Source: Zygnema cylindricum (lineage: Eukaryota; Streptophyta; Zygnematophyceae; Zygnematales; Zygnemataceae). Taken from it: a stretch of DNA of 64,000 nt. The stretch lies in NCBI GenBank assembly GCA_037447655.1, contig JBBHKE010000498.1:95001-159000 (forward strand), in the 5' to 3' direction. A program made the translations under genes and the position numbers. Every line of letters starts with the position of its first letter. The first letter of the stretch is position 1. Below the pieces are notes generated by a model that was given only the letters and a program-made list of their open reading frames with translations, did not search any database and was not told where the DNA came from. Positions 14,403 to 52,105 of this stretch are shown here, one piece after another.

Positions 14403-15451
14403 TGTAGAAACTAATGGTTTTATTAGTATTTTATAGGTCTGAAAAGAAATATAGAAGTCGAGGCAGTCTATCTCTAACTTCTCTCTCCAACTCTCAAACT
14501 TGTCGCAGTCACTGAGAAATTGGAGAGGAAGCTAGAGCCATGGTTACCTTGGCTATCCTGAGGTTTACGGGAATTTTATACTAAGGTTTATTTATTTAAT
14601 TAAAAGGTATGTGCCGGCGGCAGGATTTGATCCATGTACCTGCCGGCCGGCAATCACGAAATAGCCGGTAGCCTTAGCCGTTTAATCTAGCGGTAGTGTT
14701 AACTAGCATGTAGTTTGATAATTATTTACATATGTATACAAGCGATAAATCATTTAACTGAAATGAATTACGGGATACATAGATCCAGTAATATATAAAG
14801 TACGACTTACGGTACGGACAAAAATCAGTACCGCGCATTTGTTTCATAAATGAAACAAATACCGCGCATGTATTTATTACGGCTACGATTAAAGCCGAAT
14901 TTAATCGGACGGCCGAGATTAGCGCCGAGATCGCGGAGGAAGATTTCGGCGGTTTGTGGCCATCGCCACATCGGATGACGCGTGGCACAATTCCGTTGGA
15001 TTGTGGAAACTCCGGAGATTATGGCACCGAATCCGGATTTGACATGTGTCGACATTTTGGCCATGTCGTACAACGTCCGTACATAAAATACACCGGCAGC
15101 TGTACTTTTGCGTACGGAACTCAATTCTGATTGGTTCCGTACATCAGTAGATAGAGTCTGTGAGAGAGATAGGACTTAGAAAAATTAGAAGATAGGACCC
15201 CCTCTCCCAGAGAGCTTCTGTACAAAAGGTCAACTTTGACCCTCCATAACTTACTGCTCAGGGGAGCAAATTCAGAGATTCTTTTTGCTATCGACTCAGG
15301 GGAGTCTTGCCTTCACAGGGGTGGAGTTGGTCAGAGTTTTTGTTTGCCAGGGTGGCAGTTATTTTTGCTTAAACACAAAGGGGTCAGGATTATCCTAGAG
15401 GCTTCTTGGAAGCTGTCCACTCTGAGGACTTATGGAGGTCTCAGAGTTTCA
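14403..15451 (+). repeat. 5' LTR of N1
   Basis: TG...CA termini. From 5' to 3': antisense B-box hairpin (about 14611-14660), TATATAAA (about 14792), inverted repeat ATTTGTTTCAT-AA-ATGAAACAAAT (about 14836-14859), ACGT/GCGT paired motif (about 14966-14988), CCAAT-like ATTGG (about 15131) and conserved U5. The start of transcription is inferred to be downstream of the TATA motif. Confidence 0.95.
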
Positions 15452-16300
15452 GGTTATGGGCCCACCCTCTAGGGTACCAATCTTTAATGGAACTGGCTTC
15501 ATATACTGGGAAAGTATGATGATAGGAGCTCTATGCGAAAAAAGGTTTTGGGGGATAGTGAGTGGACGATTGGGGCGTCCATCAAGTCTTGGAATTCCTC
15601 CAGGGTTTAAAGGAAGCAGATTCACCAGGAAAGAGGATCCACCTTCAATGGAGGAAACAAAGGAAGGAGAGGTGGTGGACAAAGGAAAGGAGAAGGAGGC
15701 GACCACACCAATAGCAACTGGTTTAGCATTCATGTCACCTATTCCGAGGAACGAGGAGAATGATACTGAAACCTAGGACTTCAACAATATGGCGGCAAAG
15801 CACTTCATCCTACGCCATCTCACTCAAGGACTTGCATGTCCTCATTTGCAGGTAGAGAGGGCATCCGATCGTTGGATGGCTCTCATAGAGATGTACCGAA
15901 GTGGTACGATTCAGCAACAACAGTTGGCTGATCAGAAAGTTAAGGAGTATGTATACAAAGGGGGAAATATGTTGGATTTTTGCAATGAGCTTGCTACACT
16001 CTTCATGGAGCTAGAGAGTGCGGGTAAAGTTTTTAGTGAAAAAGAAAAAGTTAACTGTTTACTAATGAAGTTACCTGATGAGTTCGAGAACATAGTCAAC
16101 CGTGTGCAGGACTTGCCGGACTCAAGGTGGATATGGAACTCAGTGGTAGGGATGATTCTCGTTCGAGAGAATATGATTGAGATCCGAAGTGGAGGAAAGA
16201 GTGGCCAAGCCTTGGCAACAGCGACCGATTGGAGGAACAAGGATTCCCGGAAACCAGTCGGAAACTATGGGGTAGGGAGCAGAAAAAACAGGTTGGCGAG
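15432..16300 (+). pseudogene. gag of N1, one nonsense codon and one frameshift
   Basis: The frame opens at an AUG in U5 (15432), passes through the primer-site AUG (15456) and gives the conserved start MGPPSRVPIFNGTGFIYWE. A Trp codon found in the copy at 61620 is a TAG here (15774-15776). The frame continues from 15777 with the copia Gag core: GTIQQQQLADQ, LDFCNELATLFMELESAGK and LMKLPDEFENIVNRVQDLP. Near 16265-16300 a small indel shifts the zinc-knuckle region into another frame, so capsid and knuckle are separated. The related copy at 60812-61183 has this junction in one frame, so gag-pol was probably a single ORF. Gag forms the virus-like particle that packages the element's RNA. Confidence 0.85.
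15452..15466 (+). other. Primer-binding site of N1 containing an in-frame AUG
   Basis: GGTTATGGGCCCACC is complementary to the anticodon stem-loop of plant initiator tRNA-Met. The ATG at 15456-15458 is the complement of the CAU anticodon and lies in the Gag frame. Confidence 0.9.
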
Positions 16301-19300
16301 TTCGAACCAAGGGCTCCCAAAGGTTTATGTCATTTTTGTAAGAAACCGGGGCACTATATGGCAGAGTGCACCAAGCTAACCGAGCTTCGGTTAAAGGAGG
16401 GGCAGACCAGTGGTACCCCGAGAGGAAAGAAAAAGGCCCTTGTCACACAGGTACTTGAGGCGGAACCCGAGGACGAGGACGATGATCTCCTTTTGGATGA
16501 GGAGTTGGAGGCGAAAACTGAGGTTGAAATTCCACGAAGGCAGAAATGTGCTTACGGTGGATTGAAAGGTGAAGCAGGCTGGATTATAGATTCAGGTGCC
16601 TCAATGCACATGTGTAAGGATAGACACCTGTTCACTAAGATAAGAAAGATTCCCACCGTAGAGATAGAGTACGGGGATGGGAGGATAGTCACCACTACTC
16701 TTGTAGGATCGGTAGATCTGAAAGTGTTAGTAGAAGGAAAGACATCCATATTAACATTCTCCGATGTATTGTTTATTCCGGAGCTGAACAAAAACCTTAT
16801 CTCTACATCAGTATTAGATGATAAGGGTTTTTTCACTAGCACTAGGGAAGGAGTCTTTACTGCTAGTTTTGAGGAGGATGTCTATTTCATTGCTGAGAAA
16901 GGTAGCCATGGGATGTTTAGGCTGATCTTAAGTAATGAAACGAAGAAACTTTATTATGCTGGTGTTCATGATATTATGATGTGGCATAAGAGGCTTGGGC
17001 ATATGAATCTAGATAAGTTAAGAGAGATGAAAAAGATGGGAGTGGTGAAAGGGATTCAGTTCAGTGAGAGTGATGATATAAGTGATTGTAGTGGGTGTGC
17101 TCAAGGTAAAGCACACAGATTACCCTTTCCAAAAACAGCCACCTACAAGGGAGAAAAACTTCTAGATCTAGTACACACAGATATTTGGGGACCGGCTAGA
17201 GTGCCCTCACCGGGGGGGAAGAGATTTATGATGACTATAACTGATGATTGGTCTCGGTATTCCCGAGTATATTTTTTGAAAAACAAGTCAGAGGCTGAGG
17301 ATTGTTTTAGACAATATAAAGCATGGAGCGAAAAACTCCATGAAACTCCAATCAAGAGAGTAAGGAGTGACAATGGTGGAGAGTATACTTCTAACCAGTT
17401 TGAGGATTTATTGAGGGAAGATGGGGTTCAACACCAAAAGACAGTTCTAGAAAATCCGGAACAGAATGGGGTAGCTGAAAGGTTAAATAGAACACTAAGT
17501 GATAGTGCTAGAAGTATGTTGTCGGATAAGAAGATAGGAAAAAGGTTTTGGGCAGAAGCAATGAACTGTGCTAATTACCTCAAAAATAGAGTTCTTACTT
17601 CAGCTATAAAAGATCAAACACCTTATGAGAGATGGACAGGCCGGAAACCAGATTTATCTCATTTAAAGGTTTTCGGCAGTCAAGTATTCAGTCTAGATAC
17701 TGATCGGTCCAATTGGAAGCTAGATCCTAAAGGAAAACCAGGATACTTATTAGGATATGATGAGGATGTTAAAGGATATAGAGTTTATGATCTAAAAAGA
17801 GAAGATATAATCTTAGTAAAGCATCTAGTAGTTATGGATGAAGGAAAGTCTGTGGATCCCTTCAAATATACAAAGTCAGTAAAAATCAGATTTGAGTCAG
17901 AAAATTCTGATGACTTTGAGCTTCCTAACTATCCAGGTTTTAGAGACGATGACATTCTTGCAGGAACAAATCAGACCGAAAAGGACTCGGCTGTGGAAAC
18001 TCCAGTGACAACTCTACTCGAAGCGGAAGACGTGGTGGAAATTGATTCGGAATCAAGGGATAGGGGAGAAGCCGAGTTTGTTCGAAAGAATCCACGAGAA
18101 CCATCTATTCCGGCCTCTGATTTTGAGGGAGGGAGGAGAAGTAGCAAAAGACTGCAAGAAAAACAGGTTAATAACAAGGTAACTAAACTATCTCATCAAG
18201 ATGAACCTCAAACTTATCGAGAGGCGATGACTTGTCCAGAAAGAAACCGGTGGAAGACAGCCATCAATGAGGAGATGGCTTCAATCATGGCAGCCGATAC
18301 TTGGGAGCTGGTGGACTGTCCACCTAACCGAAAACCAATCGGTTGTAAGTGGGTTTTCAAACTAAAACTGAACCCAGATAACACAATCGAGCGCTACAAG
18401 GCCAGATTAGTGGCAAAGGGATTTACACAAAAGGAAGGAATTGACTACGAGGAAACCTTTGCCCCGGTGGTCAGATTTCCCTCCGTCCGCATACTTCTCA
18501 GTTTAGCAGCGGCGGAAGACATGGAAGTGCACCAGATGGACATCAAAACAGCCTTTTTGCATGGAGAATTAGAAGAGGAGATCTTCATGCGACAACCCGA
18601 AGGGTTTGTAGAAGAAGGAGAGGAGAGTAAGGTATGCCGGCTGATTAAATCTCTTTATGGTTTGAAACAGGCGCCCCGACAGTGGAATAAGAAGCTTGAT
18701 GAGTTTCTTACCGGTCTAGGATATATTCGGATCAACTCAGATCACTCAATCTATGTTTTCGAAGATGAGGAAGGTTTTATATCTATTGCAATTTATGTTG
18801 ATGATTTGCTTGTTTTAAGTAAATCAATGGAAAAAATTAATAAACTGAAAACCGATCTTAAGGGGAGATTTGAAATGAAGGATATGGGGGAAGCAAAATA
18901 TATTTTGGGAATTCAAGTAGAGAGAGACCGAAAAAGAAAAATTATAAGATTGACTCAAAAGGAAGCAATAGGGAACATGCTTGAAAAATTTCAAATGGAT
19001 AAAGCTAATAGTTGTACAACTCCAATGGAATTGAAGAAGGGAAGTGAGGGGAGTGAGGAAGAAGGAGTCATAGTCTTAGACGAGGAATTATCTCCTGATG
19101 AACAGAAGTTCATGCAGACTATTCCTTACAGGCAAGAAGTGGGAAGTCTAATCTATTTTATGAATTGTACCCGGCCGGATTTAGCTGCAGCTGTAGGAGT
19201 GCTGAGTAGAAGTCTAAATGCTCCCACTAAGAAGGATTGGGAGGCAGCTAAGAGAGTCCTTAGATACTTGGTAGGAACTAGATATCTATGGTTGCATTTG

Positions 19301-19789
19301 GGTGGGGAGAATACTGACATCACTACTTGGAGTGATGCTAGTTATGGTGATGCTCCGATGAGGAGATGTACTTCTGGATATGTATTATATGTGGGTGATG
19401 GGGCTTGCTGTTGGAGTAGCAAACAGCAAAAGGTTATTGCTCAGTCCACCATGGAGGCTGAGTATATGGCCTCTTGCTCTGCTGTAAAAGAATTGATGTG
19501 GGTCAAGTCTTTGCTTGGTGAGCTTGGTCACCTTAAGAGTGGTGTGCAGAAAATATTTTGTGATAATCAGGCAGCAATCGCTATTTCTGCCAATCCTAAA
19601 CACCATTTTAAAGCCAAACACATGGACATCAGACTCAGCTTTGTTAGAGAGAAAGTAGAAAACAAAATAATCAGTTTAGAGTACAGACCAGATAGTGAGA
19701 TGGTAGCAGATATGATGACCAAATCTGTGCCTTCCCCTAAGCTAATTTTTTGCAGGGAGAAGTGTGGTCTGAAATTAAAGATTGACTAG
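16229..19789 (+). CDS. Gag-Pol polyprotein (zinc knuckle, protease, integrase, RT, RNase H) of N1
   Basis: Open for 1186 codons from an internal ATG. The true frame probably enters from gag through a now broken junction near 16280. Domains in order: CCHC zinc knuckle (C34, C37, H42, C47); aspartic protease DSGAS (about 120); GAG-pre-integrase zinc site WHKRLGH (about 252) with CSGC (about 287); integrase catalytic Asp in HTDIWGP (about 317), Asp in SDNGGEY (about 380) and Glu in GVAERLNRTL with exactly 35 residues between the last two; reverse transcriptase with YVDDLL (about 855); RNase H with SDASYGD (about 1034), EAEYMAS and CDNQAAI (about 1110). All key residues are visible. It ends at TAG 19787-19789, immediately before the polypurine tract. 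Length and order are normal for copia. It copies element RNA into DNA and integrates it. Confidence 0.93.
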   Translation: MEEQGFPETSRKLWGREQKKQVGEFEPRAPKGLCHFCKKPGHYMAECTKLTELRLKEGQTSGTPRGKKKALVTQVLEAEPEDEDDDLLLDEELEAKTEVEIPRRQKCAYGGLKGEAGWIIDSGASMHMCKDRHLFTKIRKIPTVEIEYGDGRIVTTTLVGSVDLKVLVEGKTSILTFSDVLFIPELNKNLISTSVLDDKGFFTSTREGVFTASFEEDVYFIAEKGSHGMFRLILSNETKKLYYAGVHDIMMWHKRLGHMNLDKLREMKKMGVVKGIQFSESDDISDCSGCAQGKAHRLPFPKTATYKGEKLLDLVHTDIWGPARVPSPGGKRFMMTITDDWSRYSRVYFLKNKSEAEDCFRQYKAWSEKLHETPIKRVRSDNGGEYTSNQFEDLLREDGVQHQKTVLENPEQNGVAERLNRTLSDSARSMLSDKKIGKRFWAEAMNCANYLKNRVLTSAIKDQTPYERWTGRKPDLSHLKVFGSQVFSLDTDRSNWKLDPKGKPGYLLGYDEDVKGYRVYDLKREDIILVKHLVVMDEGKSVDPFKYTKSVKIRFESENSDDFELPNYPGFRDDDILAGTNQTEKDSAVETPVTTLLEAEDVVEIDSESRDRGEAEFVRKNPREPSIPASDFEGGRRSSKRLQEKQVNNKVTKLSHQDEPQTYREAMTCPERNRWKTAINEEMASIMAADTWELVDCPPNRKPIGCKWVFKLKLNPDNTIERYKARLVAKGFTQKEGIDYEETFAPVVRFPSVRILLSLAAAEDMEVHQMDIKTAFLHGELEEEIFMRQPEGFVEEGEESKVCRLIKSLYGLKQAPRQWNKKLDEFLTGLGYIRINSDHSIYVFEDEEGFISIAIYVDDLLVLSKSMEKINKLKTDLKGRFEMKDMGEAKYILGIQVERDRKRKIIRLTQKEAIGNMLEKFQMDKANSCTTPMELKKGSEGSEEEGVIVLDEELSPDEQKFMQTIPYRQEVGSLIYFMNCTRPDLAAAVGVLSRSLNAPTKKDWEAAKRVLRYLVGTRYLWLHLGGENTDITTWSDASYGDAPMRRCTSGYVLYVGDGACCWSSKQQKVIAQSTMEAEYMASCSAVKELMWVKSLLGELGHLKSGVQKIFCDNQAAIAISANPKHHFKAKHMDIRLSFVREKVENKIISLEYRPDSEMVADMMTKSVPSPKLIFCREKCGLKLKID

Positions 19790-19802
19790 AAAATAAGGGG
19801 AG
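19790..19802 (+). other. Polypurine tract of N1
   Basis: AAAATAAGGGGAG abuts the 3' LTR; it is the expected plus-strand primer. Confidence 0.85.
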
Positions 19803-20851
19803 TGTAGAAACTAATGGTTTTATTAGTATTTCCTAGGTCTGAAAAGAAATATAGAAGTCGAGGCAGTCTATCTCTAACTTCTCTCTCCAACTCTCAAACT
19901 TGTCGCAGTCACTGAGAAATTGGAGAGGAAGCTAGAGCCATGGCTACCTTGGCTATCCTGAGGTTTACGGGAATTTTATACTAGGGTTTATTTATTTAAT
20001 TAAAAGGTATGTGCTGGCGGCAGGATTTGATCCATGTACCTGCCGGCCGGCAATCACGAAATAGCTGGTAGCCTTAGCCGTTTAATCTAGCGGTAGTGTT
20101 AACTAGCATGTAGTTTGATAATTATTTACATATGTATACAAGCGATAAATCATTTAACTGAAATGAATTACGGGATACATAGATCCAGTAATATATAAAG
20201 TACGACTTACGGTACGGACAAAAATCAGTACCGCGCATTTGTTTCATAAATGAAACAAATACCGCGCATGTATTTATTACGGCTACGATTAAAGCCGAAT
20301 TTAATCGGACGGCCGAGATTAGCGCCGAGATCGCGGAGGAAGATTTCGGCGGTTTGTGGCCATTGCCACATCGGATGACGCGTGGCACAATTCCGTTGGA
20401 TTGTGGAAACTCCGGAGATTATGGCACCGAATCCGGATTTGACATGTGTCGACATTTTGGCCATGTCGTACAATGTCCGTACATAAAGTACACCGGCAGC
20501 TGTACTTTTGCGTACGGAACTCAATTCTGATTGGTTCCGTACATCAGTAGATAGAGTCTGTGAGAGAGATAGGACTTAGAAAAATTAGAAGATACGACCC
20601 CCTCTCCCAGAGAGCTTCTGTACAAAAGGTCAACTTTGACCCTCCATAACTTACTGCTCAGGGGAGCAAATTCAGAGATTCTTTTTGCTATCGACTCAGG
20701 GGAGTCTTGCCTTCATAGGGGTGGAGTTGGTCAGAGTTTTTGTCTGCCAAGGTGGCAGTTATTTTTTCTTAAACACAAAGGGGTCAGGATTATCCTAGAG
20801 GCTTCTTGGAAGCTGTCCACTCTGAGGACTTATGGAGGTCTCAGAGTTTCA
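19803..20851 (+). repeat. 3' LTR of N1
   Basis: 1049 bp, same landmarks as the 5' LTR. It is followed by the second CACAT target duplication. Confidence 0.95.
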
Positions 20852-22809: not shown

Positions 22810-23690
22810 TGTTGAAAAGAGGTAATTAATAGTTCACCTCTCTATTTTAGTTTTACTTTAAAGAAAGAGAGTGAGGATCAAAGGCACGCCATGGCTACCG
22901 CCATATTTAGAAAGTGGCAGAATTTGAAGAAGAGGATATTTTACTAAAATGATGCCTAAGTTTTGAACCTGAGTCTTAACCTCTACATAGTCGTACGTCT
23001 TAACCACTAATGCGTTATCGAAACGATACACGTGACGGGTTTCAAAGATATATAAACATTAACGCAATAGCTAATTAACAGCAGACTAACGAAAAGGAGC
23101 AATTCATGCATGTACGCAAATGTGAACCGTGTAAAATATGTTTTGATCGGACTGCCGACATTGTAGCCGCCACGCGAAGTGAGATTTTGGCGTCATTTGG
23201 AGATAGCGTCACGCGGTGCCACGTGGCGCCACATTATTTGATATCGGAGAAGATGGGAGGAGGAACCATGGCTCCCGATTTGACAAGTGTCACCTTGTAG
23301 ACCATGTCGTACAATTGCCGTACAATAAGTACATCTCTTATTGTACCTTCTTGTACTATATAGTGTTTCTATTGGACTAGGGTTTAGTAGTAGGTAGTCG
23401 TGAGTAGGCAGACCAAGACTTAGTGATATTTAGGTACCACTCTTTAAGAGAGCTTGTAACTATAAAGGTCATCTTTGACCAGCCATAACTTACTGCTCAA
23501 GGGAGCAAATTCAGTGATTTTTTTTGCGTTTGACTCAAGGGAGTCTTGTCCTCTTAGGGGCGAGGGTGGTCAGAATATTTGTGTGACTGGGCGGCACTTA
23601 TTCAGTGGGAAAGTGGAAGGGGCAAATATTATCTTAGAGGCTTTACATAGGCTGCTCATTCTGTGGGTCAATGGAGACCACAAAATTTTA
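22810..23690 (+). repeat. 5' LTR of element B
   Basis: TG start; the end is TTTTA where the 3' copy has TTTCA. It holds an antisense tRNA-like segment (about 22970-23025), TATATAAAC (about 23050) and the GCCACGTGGC motif (about 23218). Confidence 0.9.
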
Positions 23691-24594
23691 GGTTATCGGC
23701 CCACCCTCTAGGGTGCCTATATTTGATGGATCATACTTTTTGTATTGGGAAATGATGATGGAGGGAGAACTATTTGAGAAGCATCTATGGGGCATAGTGT
23801 GTGGACAAATTCGATTCCCACCTCCACTTGGGTTTGGAGAGACACGTTTTTCTGGCACCTCCGCCTCTAAAGTTGGTAGAACAGCTGCCACCATCACCGA
23901 GGATGAAGATGAGGAAGGAGTGGAGATTGTCATGGAAGGAGAAAAGGGAGGAGTTGCAACTGTAATGACACCATTGCCGAAGGCGATACCGGCAGCAGCA
24001 CCACCGGCAACGGCGACAAGGGTTCAGACCAAAAAATCAGAGTATGAAAAGTGGAACTACAAAGACAAGGTTGCTAAGCTCTTAATTCTTAATAGTGTAG
24101 CAAGGGGCATTGCCATTCCCCTTATGCATGTCAAATCTTCATCTAAGATTTGGATATCACTAGTTAACAAATATAAGAGTGGATCATTGCAACAACAACA
24201 GTTGGCGGAAAATAAGATTGCAGCTTATACTTATAAAGGAGGAAGTATGAATAATTATTGCAATGATTTAGGAGCATTATTTGGAGAGTTAGAGAGTGCA
24301 GGTAACTCATGGTCTGAGAGACAAAGAGTGAACACATTAATGATGAAACTACCTGAAGAGTATGAGAATATCATTAATCGATTGCAGGACATAGGAGATA
24401 GCAATTGGAATTGGGATGACACAGTGGGAATGATTTTAGTGAAAGAAAGCACCATAGAGCTTAGGAGAGGGAGTCCAAGTGTACAAGTATTGTCTGCAAG
24501 AGCTAATTGGCGGAAGCGTGATGAGGAGAGAGGGAAAGATCCTTATCGAAACTTTGGTGGAAGAGGACAAGGAGGTGGCAGATTTGATAGATAG
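23671..24594 (+). pseudogene. gag of element B
   Basis: The U5 AUG (23671) is in frame with the primer site and with PPSRVPIFDGSYFLYWE, but a C-to-T change at the LTR end creates a stop (TAG) after six codons. An alternative ATG at 23713 opens 293 codons. The Gag core is recognisable: SLQQQQLAENK, YCNDLGALFGELESAG, MMKLPEEYENIINRLQD. Gly/Arg-rich residues follow before a stop at 24592-24594, just before the zinc knuckle. An Ala/Thr/Pro-rich insert distinguishes it from the N1 family. Confidence 0.85.
23691..23705 (+). other. Primer-binding site of element B
   Basis: GGTTATCGGCCCACC: 14 of 15 match the anticodon-region primer site. The AUG of this site is AUC here. Confidence 0.85.
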
Positions 24595-27500
24595 GGGAGA
24601 GGAACTTCTCGAGGAGGATTATGTCACTTCTGCAAGAAACCGGGACACTATATGGCAGATTGTGTCAAACTTGCAGATTTTCGACTGAAAGATGGTCAAG
24701 GAACCTCAAGGGATGGAGGAAAGAAAAAGGCTTTCCTGACTCAAGTTCATGATGAGGAAGTGGAAGAAAAAACTGAGCCAGAAGAGGAGCTTGAGGAGCT
24801 TCTTCTTAATCCGAAAAACACTAAAGAGCATGTCGACATTCCATGGAGACAAAAGTGTGCTTTCGTAGGTAAGAGGGATCCACCTGAGGATGGGTGGATC
24901 ATAGACTCAGGGGCTTCAATGCATATGTGTAAAGATAAGCGGTGGTTCACTAAACTTAGAAAGATCCCAACAGTTGATATAGAGTACGGAGATGGTAGAG
25001 TAGAAACAGAAAGTCTTGTTGGAACTGTTGACTTGAAGGTTCTAGTTGATGGAAAGGCCTCAATTGTAACACTCTCAGGTGTTCTTTACATTCCACAACT
25101 TAGCAAGAACCTAGTCTCAATAGCTGTCCTTGATGAAAAAGAGTTTGAAATAGGAATTAGGACAGGAATCTTCACAGCAAGCTTTGATAATGAGGTTTAT
25201 TTCATAGCTGAGAAGGGCAGTCAAGGAATGTTCAGAATTTTTCTTTGCAATGAAAAAAGTGTTCTCTACTCTTGTGCAAGTGAGATGATGCTTTGGCATA
25301 AAAGGTTGGGGCATGTGCATCTAGATAGATTAAATAAAATGAAGAAAAATGGAATAGTGGAGGGTATTACTTTTGAGGATGATGAGACCTTTGATGATTG
25401 TAGTGGATGTGCCCAAGGGAAGATTCATAGACTTCCATTTCCAAAGGCAACCACATTTAAGAGAGAGAAAGTGTTAGATCTAGTTCACACTGATGTTAGG
25501 GGACCAGCTAGGTATGCTTCACATGGGGGGAAGAGATAGATGTTAACCATCACAGATGATTGGTCTAGATACACGAAGGTATACTTTCTCAGACATAAGT
25601 CAGAGGTATTAAGATGTTTTGAAGAGTATAAAGTATGGAGTGAAAAGCTACATGAAACCTCAATAAAAGAGAAAAGAAGTGATAATGGGAAAGAATACAC
25701 ATCAAGGGAATTTGAAGAATATCTTAAAGAAGAAGGAATTCATCATGAGAAAACTGTTCCCTATAATCCGGAACAAAATGGAGTAGCACAAAGAGTGAAT
25801 AGAACTTTAGGAGATATGTCCAGAAGTATGTTAAGTGACAAGAGGATAGGGCTGCAGTTTTGGGCCGAGTTTATGAACTATGCTAATTTCATCAAAAATA
25901 GAGTCATAACTTCAGCAAATAAGGAGGAAACTCTGTATGAGAGGTGGACACGAAGAAAGCCTGATTTGTCTAGTTTGAGAGTGTTCGGAAGTCAAGTTTA
26001 TAGTTTGGATTCCGATAAGACTAAATGGAAGTTAAAAGGAAGAGGGAAACCAAGATATCTTGTAGGATATGATGAGAGCACAAAATGATACCGGGTGTAT
26101 GACTTGAAAAAGAGAGATATAATTTTGGTAAAACACATAGTGCTGATGAATGAAATGAAGTCCATTGATCCATTCAAATATAATAAAGAAGTCAAAATCA
26201 GATTTGAAACGGATCAGTTTTCTGACTTTGAAATTTGAAAACGAAGAGAAGGAAGATGGAGAAAAAGAAAAATTTGCAGATCTACCAAAGGAGGAGGAAA
26301 AGACAACATCTGAGGCAACGCCACAATACGAAGTGGAAACCGATGAGGATTATGATGAGACACCGGAATTGGAAGATAAATGAGCTGAAAATCTTCCTAA
26401 ACGAAACCCAAGGATGCCTTCCATACTGGCTTCCGATTTTGAAGGGGGAAGAAGAAGTAGTAAACGACTTCAAGAAAGACAAGTAAATAACCTACTCACA
26501 AAGATGTCTCACCCAGATGAACATCAAAAATACTGAGAGGCCATAAACACTCCAGAAAGTAGCCGGTGGATCACAACTATAAATGAAGAAATGGCCTCTA
26601 TCATGGAAGCCAATACATCGGAGTTGGTAGATTGTCCACCAGACCAAAAACCGATTGGATGTAAGTGGGTTTTTAAACTTAAATTAAACCCCGATAATAC
26701 CATTGAGAGGTACAAAGCTAGGTTAGTTGCAAAAGGTTATACTCAGAAAAAGGGGATAGACTACGAAGAAACCTTTGCACCTATAGTCAGATTTCCTTCT
26801 GGATATGGAAATACACCAGATGGTTATTAAAATGGCCTTTTTGCACAGAGAGTTAGAAGAAGAAATTTACATAAGGCAACCGGAAGGATTCGTGGAAATT
26901 GGGAAAGAAAACAAAGTTTGCAAACTGATAAAATCACTCTATGGGCTTAAACAAGCCCCGCGACAGTGGAATATAAAGCTCGACGAATTTTTGACCGGTT
27001 TGGGGTATATCAAAATTAGTTCAGATCACTCTATATATTTATTTGAGGATGAGAATGGAGTGATATTTATTGCTATTTATGTGGATGATTTGTTGGTCTT
27101 AAGCAAGTCCTTAGATAAAATTAACAAACTAAAACGGGATCTTAGAAGCAGTTTTGATATGAAAGATCTCGGCGAAGCAAAGTATATTTTGGGAATTCAG
27201 ATGGAGAGAGATAGAGGGAATAGAATTATAAGACTCACTCAAAAAGAAGCAATCGGTAATATGCTAGAAAAATTTCAGATGGAAAAAGCAAACGGATGTA
27301 CTACTCCTATGGATTTGAAGAAAGTGTTTGAGGGGAGTGAAGAGAGAGAAATATTGATCATTAATGATAAGATGGATGAGATAGAAAGAAAATTTATGGA
27401 AAATATCCCTTATCGGCAGATTGTAGGCAGTTTAATTTATTTTATGAACAGTACCCGTCCGGATATAGCTGCAGCTGTAGGTGTCATTAGTAGAAGTCTA

Positions 27501-28072
27501 AATGAACCAAGAAAGAGAGACTGGGAGGCTGCCAAAAGGGTGATGAGGTATCTGGTTGGGACAAGGGAATTATGGTTGCATTTGGGAGGGGAGCACAGTG
27601 ACATCACCACCTGGAGTGATGTCAGTTATGGAGATGTGACCTTAAGGCGGTGTACGACTGGATATGTGTTGCAAATTGGATCCGGTGCATATTATTGGAG
27701 TAGCAAGCAACAAAAAGTAGTTGCTCAGTCCACTTTGGAGGTTGAATACATGGCTTCAGTCCTGCCACCAAAGAATTAATGTGGGTTAAATCTCTTCTTG
27801 AAGAACTTGGGTTCATGAAGTTTGGAACTCAAAATGTTTTTTGTGATAATCAAGCTGCTATCTCTATTGCAGCTAATCCGAAACATCACTTCAAAGCTAA
27901 ACATATGGATATTAGACTAAGCTTTTTCAGAGAGAAGGTTGAAAATAAAATTATTAAACTGGTTCATAAAACTGATAGAGAAATGATTGCAGACATGATG
28001 ACAAAAGCAGTGCCTTCCCCTAAGTTGATTTATTGCAGAGAAAACTGTGGATTAAAATTAAAAAGTGACTAG
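24595..28072 (+). pseudogene. pol of element B, several stops and frameshifts
   Basis: Zinc knuckle CHFCKKPGHYMADC (about 24619), protease DSGAS (about 24905), pre-integrase WHKRLGH and CSGC, integrase HTDVRGP, SDNGKEY and NPEQNGVAQRVNRTL, RT YVDDLL (about 27080), RNase H SDVSYGD and CDNQAAI. Breaks: stop at 25537-25539 in integrase, stop at 26086-26088, frameshift near 26237, stop at 26534 (TGA), frameshift near 26810-26830 in RT, frameshift near 27770 in RNase H. In RNase H a catalytic-region Ala is Val. It is not functional in the present form. Confidence 0.88.
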
Positions 28073-28085
28073 GAATTAAACGAAA

Positions 28086-28973
28086 TGTTGAAAAGAGGTA
28101 ATTAATAGTTCACTTCTCTATTTTAGGTTTAATTTAAAGAAAGAGAGTGAGGATCAAAGGCACGCCATGGCTGCCGCCATATTTAGAAAGTGGCAGATTT
28201 TGAAGTAGAGGATATTTTACTAAAATGATGTCTAAATACGGATTTGAACCTGAGTCTGTGGACCTCTACATAGTCGTACCTCTTAACCACTAAGGCGTTA
28301 TCGAAACGATACACGTGACGGGTTTCAAAGATATATAAACATTAACGCAACAGCTAATTAACAACAGACTAACGAAAAGGAGCAATTCATGCATGTACGC
28401 AAATCTCAACCGTGTAAAATATGTTTTGATCGGACGGCCGACATTGTAGCTGCCACGCGAAGTGAGATTTTGGCGTCATTTGGAGATAGCGTCACGCGAT
28501 GCCACGTGGCGCCACATTATTTGATACTGGAGAAGATGGGAGGAGGAACTATGGCTCTCGATTTGACAGGTGTCACCTTGTAGACCATGTCGTACAATTG
28601 CCGTACAATAAGTACATCTCTTATTGTACCTTCTTGTACTATATAGTGTTCCTATTGGACTAGGGTTTAGTAGTAGGTAGTCGTGAGTAGGCAGACCAAG
28701 ACTTAGTGATATTTAGGTACCACTCTCTAAGAGAGCTTGTATCTATAAAGGTCATCTTTGACCAGCCATAACTTACTGCTCAAGGGAGCAAATTCAGTGA
28801 TTTTTTTTGCGTTTGACTCAAGGGAGTCTTGTCCTCACAGGGGCGAGGGTGGTCAGAATATTTGTGTGACTGGGCGGCACTTATTCAGTGGGAAAGTGGA
28901 AGGGGCAAATATTATCCTAGAGGCTTTACATAGGCTGCTCATTCCGTGGGTCAATGGAGACCACAAAATTTCA
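28086..28973 (+). repeat. 3' LTR of element B
   Basis: 888 bp, TGTTGAAAAG to TTTCA. The antisense tRNA-like segment (about 28238-28305) has a clean B box (GGTTCAAATCC on the minus strand). Confidence 0.92.
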
Positions 28974-51226: not shown

Positions 51227-51355
51227 AATCCTAAAGCGTAACCCTAAATCCTCAGCCTAACCCTAATCCTAAAGCCTAACCCTAAATCTTACAGCTTAAC
51301 CCTAAATCCTACAGCATAACCCTAAATCTTACAGCCTAACCCTAAATCCTACAGA
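51227..51355 (+). repeat. Degenerate telomere-like repeat (CCCTAAA within 20-bp units)
   Basis: TAACCCTAAATCYTACAGC-type units of about 20 bp recur about six times. Each contains CCCTAAA, the telomere heptamer of most plants. It may be an interstitial telomere trace or chance minisatellite. Confidence 0.75.
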
Positions 51356-51555: not shown

Positions 51556-51585
51556 GGCTCACAATTGGAAATTGTCAAAAAATTG
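51556..51585 (+). pseudogene. Possible exon, 5' part, broken by a TRIM
   Basis: After T-rich, intron-like DNA a candidate acceptor (GTCTCAG at 51549-51555) is followed by an open stretch that ends at the target duplication AATTG. When the 515-bp TRIM and one duplication are ignored, the frame runs on without a stop into 52106-52320. No domain recognised. Confidence 0.3.
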
Positions 51586-51638
51586 TGTTAGATTTCCTAG
51601 AAATCCGGGATTCGGCATGTCCCACACTTGGGAAAATT

Positions 51639-51709
51639 GAGCCGGCCAGGGTTCGAACCTGGGACCTTTCACTTCAGCTGCGAACGCACTACCACTGTGC
51701 CACCAGCTC
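51639..51709 (-). tRNA. tRNA-like cloverleaf in the left TRIM LTR
   Basis: 71 nt that fold with the canonical tRNA geometry. Acceptor stem GAGCTGG/CCGGCTC (one G-U), D stem GCAC/GTGC with loop AGTGGTA, anticodon stem TTCGC/GTGAA (one G-U) with a 7-nt loop AGCTGAA, 5-nt variable loop AGGTC, T stem CCAGG/CCTGG with loop TTCGAAC. A and B boxes of a pol III promoter are therefore intact, and TTTT follows three bases after the 3' end. Arm lengths and variable loop equal those of plant tRNA-Cys. Loop position 33 is G instead of U and the anticodon position reads CTG, so decoding is doubtful. It is sense with respect to the TRIM. Confidence 0.75.
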
Positions 51710-51856
51710 GATGTTGAGACTGGCGGGTCCGTACCCATTTATTACGGGCGGCTCGAGTATGGATATTTCCATATTCTACCCCGTATTGGACCGGCTTCAC
51801 GTGCCAATCCAACACCCCCCCTCACGGGAAAGCCGGTCAAACCATCCGCAATCCCG

Positions 51857-51871
51857 CTGGCTCTGATACCA
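51857..51871 (-). other. TRIM primer-binding site, 3' end of initiator tRNA-Met
   Basis: Minus strand TGGTATCAGAGCCAG, complementary to the CCA-end of plant tRNA-iMet, directly inside the 5' LTR. This is the common plant copia/TRIM primer, unlike the half-tRNA site of the other elements in this window. Confidence 0.92.
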
Positions 51872-51924
51872 TGTTAGATTTCCTAGAAATCCGGGATTCG
51901 GCATGTCCCACACTTGGGAAAATT

Positions 51925-51995
51925 GAGCCGGCCAGGGTTCGAACCTGGGACCTTTCACTTCAGCTGCGAACGCACTACCACTGTGCCACCAGCTC
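51925..51995 (-). tRNA. tRNA-like cloverleaf in the right TRIM LTR
   Basis: Identical copy of the 71-nt cloverleaf in the other LTR, at the same offset of 53 bases from the LTR edge, with the same downstream TTTT. Confidence 0.75.
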
Positions 51996-52105
51996 GATGT
52001 TGAGACTGGCGGGTCCGTACCCATTTATTACGGGCGGCTCGAGTATGGATATTTCCATATTCTACCCCGTATTGGACCGGCTTCACGTGCCAATCCAACA
52101 AATTG

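Follow-up and report, generated by a model that had tools for sequence, protein, structure and literature searches.

Structure of the element

The questions raised by positions 51586-52100 of the window (the whole stretch of DNA analysed, 64 kb long) are what kind of element carries a tRNA cloverleaf in each of its LTRs, and what the cloverleaf does there. The sequence is a complete TRIM of 515 bp on the minus strand. Its two LTRs of 229 bp each are identical in sequence, and PBS, polypurine tract (PPT) and target site duplication (TSD) are all present, so the coordinates and the build given in the earlier note (515 bp, 229-bp LTRs) proved exact. The features are as follows, with 5' and 3' in element sense.

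51872..52100, minus strand: 5' LTR, 229 bp
51586..51814, minus strand: 3' LTR, 229 bp, identical to the 5' LTR
51815..51871, minus strand: internal part, 57 bp, without notable reading frame
51581..51585, no strand (plus-strand letters): target site duplication AATTG, copy 1
52101..52105, no strand (plus-strand letters): target site duplication AATTG, copy 2, giving a perfect 5-bp TSD
51857..51871, minus strand: PBS TGGTATCAGAGCCAG, adjoining the 5' LTR
51815..51825, minus strand: G-rich polypurine tract GTGAGGGGGGG, adjoining the 3' LTR
51924..51995, minus strand: tRNA cloverleaf of the 5' LTR, LTR bases 106-177; ARAGORN Gln(ctg), Rfam tRNA
51638..51709, minus strand: tRNA cloverleaf of the 3' LTR, LTR bases 106-177; ARAGORN Gln(ctg), Rfam tRNA
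51692..51702 and again 51978-51988, minus strand: A-box-like TGGCACAGTGG, by sequence
51650..51659 and again 51936-51945, minus strand: B-box-like GGTTCGAACC, by sequence
51919..51922 (5' LTR) and 51633-51636 (3' LTR), minus strand: TTTT 3' of the tRNA, LTR bases 179-182
52000..52002 (5' LTR) and 51714-51716 (3' LTR), minus strand: CAA 5-7 bases before the tRNA, LTR bases 99-101

Plant initiator tRNA-Met presumably pairs with the PBS through its 3' end, and this PBS speaks for a plant host. Both boxes were called by the A box and B box consensus, and CAA is a pol III start motif in plants. The TTTT behind the tRNA of the 5' LTR is possibly a weak pol III stop. Degenerate telomere-like repeats CCCTAAATCCTACAGCCTAA lie at window positions 51230-51355, just beyond the element.

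tRNA cloverleaf in the LTR

The Rfam tRNA model scores 53.6 bits in both LTRs (gathering score 29). These two tRNAs are the only matches above threshold in the Rfam search of the 64-kb window, which returned no 5S rRNA. The tRNA lies in the sense of the element, as the PBS and the G-run also put the element on the minus strand, and TTTT follows 2-5 bases downstream in each LTR. The earlier note had described a full cloverleaf in each LTR, sense to the element and with TTTT downstream, and had proposed scoring with a tRNA model; ARAGORN and Rfam agree with the description, and the score stands well above the threshold. Two details change. The segment given as 71 nt is indeed a tRNA, but 72 nt long if the last unpaired base is counted, and the tRNA called Cys-like is named Gln (ctg) by ARAGORN, not Cys. 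The analogy drawn with Cassandra, a TRIM with a pol III gene in its LTR, is right, and a pol III promoter inside the LTR can fairly be inferred from the sequence.

Folded alone, the 72-mer takes the full cloverleaf as its best fold, with a stability about that of shuffled sequences (z -0.66). The entire LTR folds with unusual stability (z -4.17), into a best structure that lacks the cloverleaf. Position 33 of the tRNA in the window copy is G, not U.

Copies of family 1 in the genome

In the 352.8 Mb assembly, at least 83 LTR matches were found, with 40 of 993 candidates scored. The tRNA core (55 nt, up to three mismatches) has 397 genome matches and the reversed control pattern has none, so the tRNA-bearing LTR is not a product of chance. 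All of the 100 core matches that were fetched belong to whole or fragmentary LTRs of the same family, designated family 1. Its copies are dispersed, and single LTRs and tandem arrays with three to five LTRs also occur. Hundreds of LTRs would swell any automatic count of tRNA genes in the genome.

Copies with TSDs, a count of which had been suggested in the earlier note, are numerous: among 40 fetched loci (36 with complete outer ends, four truncated), a perfect 5-bp TSD flanks 27 of the 36 end-complete copies. It is present in 21 of 25 two-LTR copies, in all four tandem arrays and in two of seven single LTRs, and in none of the four truncated loci. One of the single LTRs, L043, has an internal part in front.

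LTRs of the 26 complete two-LTR copies (L009-L048) differ from each other by 0 to 10 substitutions, with zero in 10 copies. Such little diverged pairs indicate that many insertions are recent, in a sample that is biased to young copies, its members having been picked for resemblance to the window copy or for an exact tRNA core. Behind AACA, the PBS of L009-L048 (n = 39) has the form TGGTATCGGAGCCAG in 28 cases, TGGTATCAGAGCCAG in six and TGGTATCAAAGCCAG in five; the window copy carries TGGTATCAGAGCCAG, a minority form. The TTTT is kept in 119 of 123 sampled LTRs with at least 97% identity and in 27 of 34 below 92%. CAA was found in 111 of the 123 youngest sampled LTRs versus nine of the 34 most diverged, 14 of which have CTA. 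A gain of start-site strength would fit the higher frequency of CAA in young LTRs, in a biased sample. An LTR array with a spacing of 243 bases, in which a 17-base spacer replaces the internal part, was observed in L063 at 1437-2394 (G000:C144).

Families 2 and 3 and the exchange of tRNA parts

Two further families with a tRNA in the LTR were seen in the genome. Family 2 was found via a recombinant family-1 LTR. In L134, its LTR is 246 bases long and its internal part 61, and the PBS of the family is TGGTATCAGAGC. ARAGORN names the tRNA Ala(ggc) in all eight LTRs of the five fetched loci (L134-L138), four of which (L135-L138, not L134) have a perfect 5-bp TSD by eye. Compared with family 1, the tRNA is 68% identical (shuffled maximum 59%), and U3 and U5 55% each (shuffled maxima 55% and 56%). 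With values no higher than those of shuffles, U3 and U5 of family 2 appear unrelated to those of family 1.

Family 3 was seen at C1414 (L139) and C1862 (L140). The tRNA of L140 agrees with that of family 1 in 67 of 72 bases (93%), and its U3 and U5 are 61% identical each (shuffled maxima 54% and 57%). L139 is 90% identical to family 1 in the tRNA, 56% in U3 (maximum 57%) and 62% in U5 (maximum 56%). By the shuffled maxima, the flanks of family 3 are barely above chance, and U3 of L139 is not above it. The near identity of the tRNA to that of family 1 would point to either strong constraint or exchange. A TATATAA motif lies about 32 bases upstream of the tRNA in L140.

Mixed copies were also found. 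The 5' LTR of L056 (1103-1333; G000:C66:35963-36193) is a young family-1 LTR except for the 5' half and the anticodon arm of the tRNA, and the replaced stretch matches family 2 across 40 bases. The hybrid tRNA scores 33.7 bits (Rfam), the TSD TGTTA is intact and the 3' LTR is unchanged. Since reverse transcription normally equalizes the LTRs, L056 requires that one of its LTRs was converted or that a strand jump was irregular. L140 is a mosaic of a family-3 LTR, an internal part of family 2 save near the PBS, and a family-2 LTR. In the L092 array, a young family-1 LTR is flanked by two old LTRs. As judged from these copies, tRNA halves and LTRs have recombined between families.

Conservation and decay of the stems

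The old LTRs of L092 (subfamily 1-old) are 85% identical to the window LTR, and their tRNA scores 54.6 bits. Their anticodon stem reads CTGAC/GTCAG versus TTCGC/GTGAA in the window copy: two pairs are changed on both sides, one G-U became A-U and none is broken. As the two are the outer LTRs of one array, these paired changes are one case, not many. In an alignment of four tRNAs (families 1, 1-old, 3 and 2), 83 of 84 pair cells hold standard pairs, and nine pairs are changed on both sides (shuffled mean 2.7; 0 or 1 with the partners slid); the part of this count contributed by family 2, whose tRNA may have been acquired independently, may reflect tRNA ancestry and not constraint.

Across the 34 LTRs sampled at less than 92% identity, broken pair cells number 20 of 225 in the acceptor stem and 21 of 141 in the T-stem, and no tRNA above the Rfam threshold was found at the old loci L117 and L100. 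Because the sample is mostly young and was chosen by likeness, the stem data of single copies were not counted for or against selection. Stem loss in single copies would be expected of dead copies of an element that is kept only at its source. Decay of the stems had been named in the earlier note as evidence against its reading, and the outcome is divided: single old copies do lose stems, but paired changes keep them between subfamilies and families.

Relation to known elements

Elements known as tRNA-derived SINEs have a tRNA-derived pol III promoter and TSDs of variable length, without LTRs, PBS or PPT. The window element shares such a promoter with them, but its LTR structure, PBS, PPT and 5-bp TSDs rule out its identity as a SINE.

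Helenus comprises TRIMs with tRNA-derived LTRs from fungi, animals and one plant in the available part of Kojima 2024 (PMC10886601). The plant family named there, from Selaginella moellendorffii, has an LTR of 120 bp, an internal part of 85 bp and a 5-bp TSD; the suggestion of the earlier note that no plant TRIM of this kind had been described is thus wrong. The same part of the paper gives a TSD of 5 bp for Helenus in plants and fungi, tandem arrays in one family and several families per genome in rusts. Pol III transcription of Helenus/TRIMp3 is expected there from sequence, with experimental proof still needed, and mobilisation is ascribed to an autonomous Copia or Gypsy element with a like PBS. 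Among the matches listed in the literature search, judged by title and start of abstract, none besides Kojima 2024 concerns tRNA-bearing TRIMs.

The window element resembles Helenus in being short, with two LTRs and no coding capacity, in carrying a tRNA-derived sequence with A and B boxes in both LTRs, and in the position of the PBS behind the 5' LTR and of the PPT before the 3' LTR. Its family also shares the 5-bp TSD of plant and fungal Helenus (perfect in 27 of 36 copies). Unlike the Selaginella family (LTR 120 bp, internal part 85 bp), it has a longer LTR (229 bp) and a shorter internal part (57 bp). Its membership in Helenus, assigned by described features and not by consensus sequences, is well supported. 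Novelty of the design is therefore refuted, as a TRIM with a tRNA in its LTR was already known. What looks new is the presence of several tRNA-bearing TRIM families in one genome, with tRNA parts shared and exchanged; the available part of PMC10886601 describes for Helenus neither the swapping of tRNA parts by different families nor truncation where the tRNA starts, both seen here.

Cassandra shares with the tRNA-bearing TRIMs found here a pol III gene in the LTR, tandem arrays and the PBS TGGTATCAGAGC, which is the conserved PBS of Cassandra (PMC7215508, PMC10853983, as far as the available text of each extends; PMC7215508 for the conserved PBS). The gene in its LTR is a 5S rRNA, whereas that of the window element is a tRNA, with no 5S match above the Rfam threshold.

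The account of Helenus rests on sequence, and a genome in which young copies and recombinants occur beside several families, some related and some not, opens questions of mechanism: how terminally repeated RNA arises in a pol III retrotransposon that has a terminator early on, whether the enzymes of tRNA processing form the ends of the element, and how tRNA modules pass from one element to another.

Transcription and the start of the RNA

The window element is probably a young non-autonomous TRIM of the Helenus/TRIMp3 type, the tRNA-like sequence of which would serve as an internal pol III promoter. Pol III would be recruited via the A and B boxes of the 5' LTR and would start near CAA. It would sometimes read past the TTTT of the 5' LTR and stop at that of the 3' LTR. 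Initiator tRNA-Met would be the primer, and an autonomous LTR retrotransposon would provide the enzymes. This reading is supported by the cloverleaf above the Rfam threshold with its A and B boxes and TTTT, by the family structure, TSDs and arrays, and by the 10 of 26 copies with substitution-free LTR pairs. Further support comes from the tRNA of family 3 (93% against about 61% for the flanks), the tRNA of family 2 in an unrelated LTR, the paired changes of L092 at 54.6 bits, and the TTTT kept in 119 of 123 LTRs. Against it, the TTTT in the 5' LTR should halt much of the transcription, the cloverleaf does not form in the optimal fold of the entire LTR, the 72-mer alone is of ordinary stability, single old copies lose stems, L117 and L100 being without a tRNA match, and the sample is biased to young copies.

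That the element is an ordinary pol II TRIM with a passenger sequence, a tRNA or the head of a SINE, is improbable. TRIMs are generally regarded as pol II elements, and decaying stems in single copies would suit a passenger, but three families of one genome have the tRNA in a similar position and in one orientation, and neither the 93% identity of the tRNA between families 1 and 3, with flanks at about 61%, nor the paired changes would be expected of one. It is hardly credible that the element is a vehicle multiplying functional tRNA genes, even if ARAGORN and Rfam take the sequence as tRNA: none of the four tRNAs of families 1, 1-old, 2 and 3 has U at position 33, where G or C is found instead, and the ARAGORN anticodons vary (ctg, ctc and ggc among families 1, 1-old and 2; cgg in the recombinant). 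For most Helenus, much the same conclusion is reached in the available part of Kojima 2024 (PMC10886601).

Apart from the promoter, the cloverleaf may have a role at the start of the RNA, as truncated copies tentatively hint. Considered were family-1 LTR pieces starting between bases 13 and 113; L131 and L132 (contig ends), six family-2 rows and three pieces starting at base 148 or later were left out. The 13 pieces start at bases 16, 29, 39, 85, 90, 95, 99, 104, 105, 106, 106, 106 and 113. Five of them thus fall at 104-106, and the first base of the tRNA is 106. If starts were spread evenly, five would fall at 104-106 with a probability of 2e-5 (binomial), and within any window of 3 bases with one of 0.0017. 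The starts at 105 and 104 would be accounted for if one or two flanking bases happened to match. L070, L121 and L129 consist of the bare tRNA and U5, ending at base 229 without PBS, the span expected of minus-strand strong-stop DNA for an RNA starting at the tRNA. The truncated pieces L084 and L100 continue into the PBS and the internal part.

Such starts are what cleavage by RNase P would give. RNase P would trim the RNA of the Helenus-type TRIM so that the genomic RNA begins at the first base of the tRNA, which would explain the upkeep of the whole cloverleaf and not of the A and B boxes alone. The clustered starts, the strong-stop extent of the three bare pieces and the paired anticodon-stem changes, which lie outside the promoter boxes, argue for this role, yet it is doubtful on balance. 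The cases are few, and the 3-base window was picked after the first of them. A single LTR truncated at its 5' end would end at 229 too, and L100 has GAGC in common between the PBS and the tRNA start, so that microhomology could explain its junction. Two of the five places found in the genome-wide scan for junctions at LTR base 106 belong to family 3, and in the fetched DNA, which served as control, other LTR positions have up to four junction contexts. The truncations at 90, 95 and 99 lie off the tRNA start and could be primary start sites. Slightly less probable again is the wider proposal that the tRNA is a literal R region, with RNase P trimming the RNA, strong-stop fossils left in the genome, and the tRNA traded between TRIM families as a strand-jump module; trading of the module is suggested by the tRNA of families 1 and 3 (93%, against about 61% for U3 and U5), the hybrid LTR of L056 and the mosaic L140.

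Copia elements and the autonomous partner

Two Copia elements lie in the window: one at 14403-20851, whose LTRs measure about 1049 bp and are 98.7% alike, and one at 22810-28971, whose LTRs measure about 886 bp and are 95.7% alike. In a search with the Copia polyprotein, which scored the 7984 candidates with the most shared words, the best match was 64% identical, and the others among the 120 matches listed reached 43% at most. The sequences behind the LTRs of the two elements, GGTTATGGGCCC and GGTTATCGGCCC, appear to pair with initiator tRNA-Met in its anticodon region, as expected of a half-tRNA primer. As their PBS differs (GGTTATGGGCCC or like, not TGGTATCAGAGCCAG), these elements were rejected as the autonomous partner of the TRIM, and no partner with the TRIM PBS was found within the 64-kb window. 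In L084, L121 and L009, TRIM sequence adjoins Copia sequence in the same sense and is joined to it without TSD, and the breakpoints of L121 and L009 fall almost at one and the same codon of Copia. L031 and L095, however, lie antisense within Copia sequence, which is common in the genome.
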